Assembly (NCBI GenBank): GCA_014238615.1
Contig: JABAAT010000031.1
Span: 1 to 47,568 of the forward strand
Direction of reading: 5' to 3'
DNA: 47,568 nt
Origin: Gammaproteobacteria bacterium
Lineage (GTDB): Bacteria > Pseudomonadota > Gammaproteobacteria > Porifericomitales > Porifericomitaceae
The notes below the pieces were generated by a model. The model was not told the origin of the DNA and did not search any database. It worked only from the letters and a program-made list of their open reading frames with translations. Positions within the stretch are counted from its first letter, which is position 1, and every line of letters begins with the position of its first letter. Both the position numbers and the translations under genes were made by a program. Positions 11,588 through 12,583 of the stretch are shown here, in pieces.

Positions 11588-12235
11588 ATGCAAGCGCTTG
11601 ACACGGCGGGGCCGGGGCTGCGCCTGGAAGCCGACGGCTGGCTGGGCACGGTGCGCCGTTGCCGTTCGCCCAACCAGGACGCGCGGCCTTCCGGTACGAC
11701 CGTCAACCTGCTGGTAGTGCACGCCATCAGCCTGCCGCCAGGCTGCTTCGGCGGTCCGCATGTCGACCGGTTGTTTACCAACACCCTTGAACCGCGGGCG
11801 CATCCCGGCCTTGAGACCCTGCGGGGACTCCGCGTCTCCGCCCATTTGCTGATTGCCCGTGACGGCGGGGTGACCCAGTACGTGTCCCTGTCCCGGCGCG
11901 CCTGGCACGCCGGGGAGTCGGTCTTCGAGCAGCGGCCGCGTTGCAACGATTACTCCATCGGCGTGGAGCTGGAAGGCGACTCCCAGGTTTCCTACGCGGA
12001 GGTGCAATACCTGCGCCTGGTGGAGCTGAGCCGCCTTCTCATGCGCGCCTATCCTGCCATCAGCCCCGAACGGGTCGTGGGGCACTGCCACATCGCCCCG
12101 AAGCGCAAGCAGGATCCCTACGCGCACTTTGACTGGGATTGGTACCGCGCCCGGTTGCGTGATCGGTCGCGCCCGCCCGGGGCGCGACCGCCGCTGCCGC
12201 CCGGCACCCGCCATGGTGAGCCCGACAGGATTTGA
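11588..12235 (+). CDS. ampD: 1,6-anhydro-N-acetylmuramyl-L-alanine amidase
   Basis: 215 aa, cytoplasmic zinc amidase. It cleaves the lactyl-amide bond of anhydromuropeptides during peptidoglycan recycling and so lowers the AmpR-inducing signal where AmpC is present. Zinc ligands are visible: the first His in LLVVHAISLPPG, and the second His with Asp in RVVGHCHIAPKRKQDPYAHF. SVSLSRRAW-type and NDYSIGVELEGD blocks also match. AAGGAG precedes the ATG by about 12 nt. The last seven codons lie inside the antisense tRNA-Lys gene (22-nt overlap), so the C-terminal tail HGEPDRI is encoded by tRNA sequence read backwards. Confidence 0.93.
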   Translation: MQALDTAGPGLRLEADGWLGTVRRCRSPNQDARPSGTTVNLLVVHAISLPPGCFGGPHVDRLFTNTLEPRAHPGLETLRGLRVSAHLLIARDGGVTQYVSLSRRAWHAGESVFEQRPRCNDYSIGVELEGDSQVSYAEVQYLRLVELSRLLMRAYPAISPERVVGHCHIAPKRKQDPYAHFDWDWYRARLRDRSRPPGARPPLPPGTRHGEPDRI

Positions 12236-12583
12236 ACCTGTGACCTGCTGATTACTCCACCACTACGGTTTTCACCGCCGCCTCCGTCAACCGATGCATC
12301 GGTGGTCGGGGGGCTTTGTGGCCCGGACTGTCTCTTCATCCCGGAGCAGGCCCCGACCGCTGCCGCGCTCGCTGCTGTCCGGGAGGGCGCCGTACAGTCT
12401 CTACACCTTCCCCGTCGGCGCGGCGCCGTTTCATGGAAGCACCGCCGTCCGGGGCTTGGCTCGGGATTGCCACCGGCTTGAGCCGCTGAGGGTTCCCCGA
12501 GTTTGACGCCTTTTCCACACGCCCGTTACCGGGCGGGGCTCCCATACGAAAGTCAGCTGCTCTACCACCTGAGCTACGGGCCC
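12214..12583 (-). tRNA. tRNA-Lys(UUU), split by a group I intron
   Basis: Exon 1 is 12549-12583 (35 nt) and exon 2 is 12214-12254 (41 nt), including an encoded CCA. Joined, they give a 76-nt tRNA. The acceptor stem is GGGCCCG with CGGGCTC (one G-U pair), the D arm contains GCTCAGGTGGTAGAGC, the anticodon stem is GCTGA with TCAGC, and the T arm is ACAGG-TTCAAAT-CCTGT. The spliced anticodon loop is CTTTTAA, so the anticodon is UUU. The intron interrupts between the second and third anticodon nucleotides. The gene cannot make a functional tRNA without splicing. It is convergent with and overlaps the ampD 3' end by 22 nt. Confidence 0.93.
12255..12548 (-). mobile_element. Group I intron (294 nt, IC3-like, no ORF)
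   Basis: The intron sits in the anticodon loop of tRNA-Lys and ends in G, as group I introns do. P1: exon CTTT plus intron C pairs with GGGAG around loop GTAT, placing the splice-site U in a U-G pair. P2 is CGCCCG-GTAA-CGGGCG. P4 pairs CTCGGG with CCCGAG, and P5 is CGGC-TCAA-GCCG. The core stretch GAAGGTGTAGAGACT is as I recall it from the Azoarcus tRNA-Ile intron. P7 pairs GACTGT (12394-12399) with ACAGTC (12326-12331). P8 pairs CCCGGA with TCCGGG. Peripheral hairpins are ACCGA-TGCA-TCGGT and CGGT-GAAA-ACCG. No homing endonuclease is encoded, so it is probably self-splicing and no longer autonomously mobile. Confidence 0.93.

Follow-up and report, generated by a model that had tools for sequence, protein, structure and literature searches.

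Within the window (the whole 47,568-nt stretch of DNA analyzed here), a tRNA-Lys(UUU) gene occupies positions 12583-12214 of the minus strand, with coordinates that inspection of the sequence fixed to the base. Its 5' exon (12549..12583, minus strand) comprises an acceptor strand, the D arm, anticodon-stem sequence and C32 U33 U34 U35, and its 3' exon (12214..12254, minus strand) comprises U36 A37 A38, the rest of the anticodon stem, the T arm, an acceptor strand and an encoded CCA. Between U35 and U36, the anticodon is interrupted by 294 nt (12255..12548, minus strand). The first-pass annotation had placed an insert of this length between anticodon positions 35 and 36 and held that its removal gives a tRNA-Lys, and this proved exact: ARAGORN reads the joined exons (76 nt) as tRNA-Lys(ttt), with pairing in all four stems and an encoded CCA. 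Run on the window without introns, the program missed the gene; with introns allowed, it found the correct gene ends, shifted the splice site and mislabeled the product as tRNA-Thr. The insert contains no open reading frame of homing-endonuclease size, its longest stop-free stretch being 90 codons. An open reading frame for an AmpD-like N-acetylmuramoyl-L-alanine amidase (11588-12235, plus strand) extends 22 bases into the 3' end of the tRNA gene, which runs in the opposite direction.

We examined the fold of the insert helix by helix against an alignment of 20 related introns, the window's included; all positions in this paragraph are on the minus strand. P1 (12539..12552) joins exon C32 U33 U34 U35 to intron G7 G8 A9 G10 in four exon pairs, of which U35·G7 marks the 5' splice site. 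This pair of an exon-end U with a guide G is kept in all 20 introns, and a G is the last base of every one (the terminal, or omega, guanosine, 12255..12255 in the window). P2 (12521..12534) is a hairpin capped by a GUAA tetraloop of the GNRA type, with covariation in six of its seven pairs. P3 pairs GGCGUC (12505..12510) with GGCGCC (12386..12391); across the alignment, 99.2% of its cells are paired and four pairs show changes on both sides. The two strands of P4, UCGGG (12496..12500) and CCCGA (12461..12465), are invariant in all 20 introns. P7, formed by GACUGU (12394..12399) and ACAGUC (12326..12331), shows UA/CG/GC and AU/GC/UA compensations. An earlier count of six perfect pairs in this helix is right for the window itself, but conservation extends to five of them, and the sixth forms in 1 of the 20 introns, the window's own. 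P8 (UCCCGG, 12379..12384; CCGGGA, 12339..12344) is supported by sequence and covariation, with a register in the window that is one off relative to its relatives, and the P9.2 hairpin CGGU-GAAA-ACCG (12266..12277) has 100% of its cells paired and three covarying pairs. The other landmarks first picked out by eye (the U-G splice pair of P1, P4, P8, the GNRA-capped stems and the terminal G) are all present. Compared with most relatives, the window intron has longer P6, P8 and P9 loops, and its R1 score lies close to the bottom of the range for Lys introns.

At the gathering threshold, an Rfam search of the insert returned nothing. The Intron_gpI model (RF00028) matched part of the core at 23.7 bits (E 7e-4), below a gathering cut-off of 50 that is a convention of the curators and no property of the RNA. 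As a yardstick we used an intron in tRNA-Leu(UAA), an established group I intron host; it scored 40.8 bits with the same model, also below 50. The first-pass annotation had proposed this search and had named a score below threshold as grounds for rejecting a group I intron. The score does formally fall there, but the cut-off fails the yardstick as well, and we regard the Rfam result by itself as equivocal, suggestive rather than decisive. We therefore gathered relatives and built a family model, a covariance model running from P3 to P7 and made from 19 introns with the window excluded to avoid circularity. With this window-free model, the intron of the window scored 91.7 bits (E ~1e-20, 61 kb searched), and the runner-up match across the whole genome reached 15.3 bits.

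Covariation in the 20 aligned introns (199-311 nt) points the same way. Over P2, P3, P4, P5, P6, P7, P8, P9.0, P9 and P9.2, 93.8% of cells were paired, and 27 of the 48 pairs showed compensatory double changes. The covariation score was 0.455, compared with 0.142 in shuffled alignments; none of 500 shuffles reached the observed value, a count that is not to be read as a probability because the shuffles ignore relatedness. Controls in which the partners were slid by one to three columns agreed in direction, with pairing falling to 28-47%. The minimum-free-energy fold of the whole precursor gave an uninformative z of -1.5. What emerges is a group I core with the P3/P7 pseudoknot, comprising P3-P8 and P4-P6. 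Judged against the introns gathered here, the anticodon-loop site, a compact P5 without P5abc and close kinship to tRNA-Leu(UAA) introns would agree with subgroup IC3, that of tRNA introns, to which the window intron may belong. These data support the earlier group I assignment, and we consider it very probable, jointly with the self-splicing set out below, that the insert is a group I intron.

After transcription, GGAG in the intron would act as the internal guide and pair with the exon end CUUU; a guanosine supplied from outside (GTP) and bound in P7 would cleave 3' of U35. The freed 3'-OH of U35 would then attack after the terminal G (G294), joining U35 to U36 and releasing the 294 nt, and the mature tRNA would read AAA and AAG. 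The exon-guide pairing, the U·G, the G-binding helix P7 and the terminal G are the features of the sequence that point to this route, and splicing in the cell, by this chemistry, is what would be expected from established group I introns. We are highly confident in the prediction that the 294-nt RNA removes itself as a group I intron to yield tRNA-Lys(UUU).

The genome probably has no other source of this tRNA. In an assembly of 1.67 Mb that is 99.3% complete, we found 44 tRNA genes, the split Lys(UUU) and 43 others, with each anticodon present once except for three CAT and with all amino acids covered. The sole other lysine tRNA has the anticodon CUU, and a pattern search for an intact Lys(UUU) anticodon arm found none in this genome, although the division into 75 contigs limits the sole-copy call, as an intact copy could be missing. 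Nor did the search find one in genome G002 of the same family, which has the intron form alone; another genome of the family, G001, has one uninterrupted arm. AAA codons occur in genes of the window (five, for example, in an HU-family gene), and, by established decoding rules, a CUU anticodon does not read AAA. With no intact Lys(UUU) and a CUU tRNA unable to read AAA, splicing should be essential, and AAA decoding should depend on it. The dependence noticed earlier for the only lysine tRNA of the window thus extends to the whole assembly, where a count of other tRNA-Lys genes, suggested as a check, gives a single one, with CUU. Among ten other genomes with an intron at U35/U36, two (G376 and G379) had a possible arm with one mismatch. 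The search of the remaining eight brought up no second candidate for a Lys(UUU) arm, at most near-matches of the Lys(CUU) or Asn type, so that the intron form is tolerated as the sole copy in separate lineages. Tistrella mobilis and Sphingomonas cremea, both cultured isolates, share this sole-copy allele.

We weighed two other accounts of the insert. It might be a decayed intron that no longer splices, with the gene reduced to a pseudogene and an intact tRNA-Lys(UUU) lying on a stretch of the genome missing from the assembly, as the 75 contigs and the Rfam score under the cut-off would allow. Every core helix, the guide, the U·G and the terminal G are intact, however, and since all of the 43 other tRNAs, including those with the other standard anticodons, were found, Lys(UUU) alone would have to be missing; G002, too, has only the intron form. 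We therefore hold decay to be very improbable. Still further from the evidence is an intron of another type, either group II, for which there is a model in the plant chloroplast trnK gene, or the protein-spliced archaeal type. The chloroplast gene likewise encodes a lysine tRNA(UUU), but its intron is a group II intron with matK and has an unrelated fold. No group II family appeared among the Rfam matches to E 10, and the 5' end of the insert is CGUAU rather than GUGYG. An archaeal-type intron would be expected at position 37/38, not 35/36, and would be very much shorter than 294 nt. Covariation of the P3/P7 pseudoknot argues against both, and the core structure already refutes them, so that we give this account almost no chance against a self-splicing group I intron.

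Introns of this kind in tRNA-Lys(UUU) are also present, though not annotated, in bacteria unrelated to this one and in a phage. When contigs of GTDB species were scanned for a tRNA-Lys(UUU) 5' half followed at the proper distance by the conserved P4 strand, 18 of the 20 matches proved to be true tRNA-Lys genes carrying an insert; of the other two, L082 was dropped because its tRNA is intact and L087 because it matched by chance. The hosts are Sphingomonas cremea, S. solaris, Sphingomonas sp. ID1715, Tistrella mobilis, Neomegalonema perideroedes, several alpha- and gammaproteobacterial metagenome-assembled genomes (MAGs) and the actinobacterium Nesterenkonia salmonea. A Blast search of phages added Gordonia phage Daredevil, which completed the 20-intron set (these 18, Daredevil and the window), and one of plasmids matched only the tRNA 3' end. 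Several viral contigs also carry a tRNA-Lys(UUU) intron. The lysine host is thus shared by Alpha- and Gammaproteobacteria, one actinobacterium and one phage, and is overlooked by Rfam as well as by tRNA finders; a genome with such an intron looks as though it had no tRNA-Lys(UUU). In the Gammaproteobacteria, the family model found a related intron in 69 of 369 sampled genomes, and a pattern search found the Lys(UUU) form in two of the 369, the window genome and G002. Of the 29 loci inspected, most lie in tRNA-Leu(UAA) and others in Ile2(CAU), Arg(CCU) and Arg(UCU), while a single locus reads as Ser(UGA) and another as Thr(UGU). The last two (L109 in G281 and L122 in G209) are apparent group I intron hosts absent from the papers cited here.

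We compared these introns with those known from other tRNAs in a tree of 84 introns and 139 columns that has many open forks. Proteobacterial Lys introns and most gammaproteobacterial Leu introns fall into one branch (support 97/97, 37 rows), and the Nesterenkonia and Daredevil introns pair with each other (97/86); a single origin of the Lys introns is neither shown nor excluded by the tree. The tRNA-Leu(UAA) introns of cyanobacteria, plastids and many of the Gammaproteobacteria sampled here resemble the Lys intron in being short, in interrupting the anticodon and in having the same core, but differ in their host tRNA, in their exon-guide pairing and in their insertion after U34, where the window intron follows U35. 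The tRNA-Ile2(CAU) introns of Azoarcus, and those of Acidovorax and Burkholderia (PMC8450103), are likewise proteobacterial group I introns of the anticodon loop, and one of them, in G049, scored 125.8 bits with the Lys model; they differ in tRNA and splice site and lie outside the Lys/Leu branch. Introns of tRNA-Arg(CCU) and Arg(UCU) (Beggiatoaceae, PMC4853749) are matched by the Lys model at 70-112 bits, but those of Arg(CCU) form a branch of their own (98/92). A lysine host has been claimed for a "group I intron" in cyanobacterial tRNA-Lys(CTT) (PMC5733544), but that gene has another anticodon, and we did not accept it as a true precedent because inserts of the claimed 22-49 nt are too short for a group I core.

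In the open-access literature searched, we found no group I intron in tRNA-Lys(UUU) and no lysine case of group I size; the bacterial tRNAs named as hosts are those for Leu, fMet, Ile2 and Arg. Lysine tRNA goes unmentioned in a review devoted to group I introns of bacteria (PMC3984707); fMet and Ile2 are named as tRNA intron hosts (PMC8450103), Leu(UAA) and Arg(UCU) introns are reported in Beggiatoaceae (PMC4853749), and tRNAs are said in general to be often invaded (PMC8172020). The first-pass annotation knew of no well-described bacterial tRNA-Lys(UUU) case. The open-access literature searched agrees with this, but the window's intron is not isolated, with 18 more bacterial loci and several viral ones, and lysine tRNA joins the few bacterial tRNAs for which a group I intron has been described.

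Three introns (those of Nesterenkonia, a Rhizobiales MAG and Daredevil) are inserted at U34/U35, one base earlier than in the window, and each is associated with an integration site that consists of the tRNA-Lys anticodon arm in uninterrupted form. In the Rhizobiales MAG (CAIRGJ010000035.1, L083:2491-4316), a tRNA-Lys(UUU) is halved by a 1.75-kb insert. The truncated 5' half (2491-2535) and the orphan 3' half (from 4275) share a 14-bp direct repeat, CTTTTAATCAGGTG, and the insert contains a complete intron-split tRNA-Lys(UUU) along with a Schlafen/AlbA_2 gene. In Nesterenkonia salmonea (L231, L235 and L079), the 5' and 3' halves of a tRNA-Lys(UUU) lie on separate contigs, with the common core CTTTTAATCCGCT and with Abi_2 and MerR genes close by, and the intron-split tRNA-Lys on a third contig adjoins a large serine recombinase. 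Daredevil (NC_048021.1, L094:1325-1809) has a tRNA-Lys(UUU), missing from its annotation, that adjoins the integrase and contains a group I intron of 238 nt; about 170 bp from it, beside the integrase, is an uninterrupted anticodon-arm sequence, GACTTTTAATCCGC, that is likely attP. On the simplest reading of these arrangements, an element would insert into tRNA-Lys(UUU), destroy the gene and carry a substitute, and we infer that the intron may keep the substitute from being an integration target.

These three cases raise a further possibility for the window, that its intron was brought by, and serves, an element targeting the anticodon loop of tRNA-Lys(UUU), the split gene escaping the element's own or related integrases. 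Yet the window has no att-like duplicate of either tRNA half, its intron is at U35/U36 rather than U34/U35, and the ordinary ways in which introns spread, homing or reverse splicing, are just as possible, which makes this history unlikely and, for the window, speculative. It also concerns the origin and benefit of the intron and not the mode of its removal. More generally, group I introns might persist in tRNA-Lys(UUU) by masking the anticodon-loop site CTTTTAATC from integrating elements, which would break the host gene and bring a split substitute that still yields the tRNA but cannot be targeted, an idea that we put forward only tentatively and with considerable doubt. If it is true, an intron allele present as the only copy, as in the window, would protect its genome permanently against elements of this type. 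The link to integrative elements may matter more than the window finding itself, as it makes testable a long-open question, namely why introns keep landing in the anticodon loops of single-copy tRNAs. We found no paper joining introns with attachment sites, and none of the papers listed for group I introns together with tRNAs of phages described an intron in a phage tRNA; every phage intron known in 2014 sat in a protein gene (PMC3984707).

Many viral contigs from IMG/VR (L126-L214), some of which may be cellular, carry group I introns in tRNA genes, among them those for Leu(UAA), for Lys with either UUU or CUU, for Thr and for Arg; these genes often stand within tRNA arrays. We did not accept L131, L135 and L137 as proven phage, as they have metabolic genes among their neighbors. 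L213 has three of these tRNA introns, and in L143 (6105-6237) and L183 a related intron splits tRNA-Lys(CUU) (GACTCT | ... | TAATC). In L130 (3386-4168 and 10458-11138), genes for HNH endonucleases, possibly free-standing homing enzymes, lie near intron-split tRNAs.
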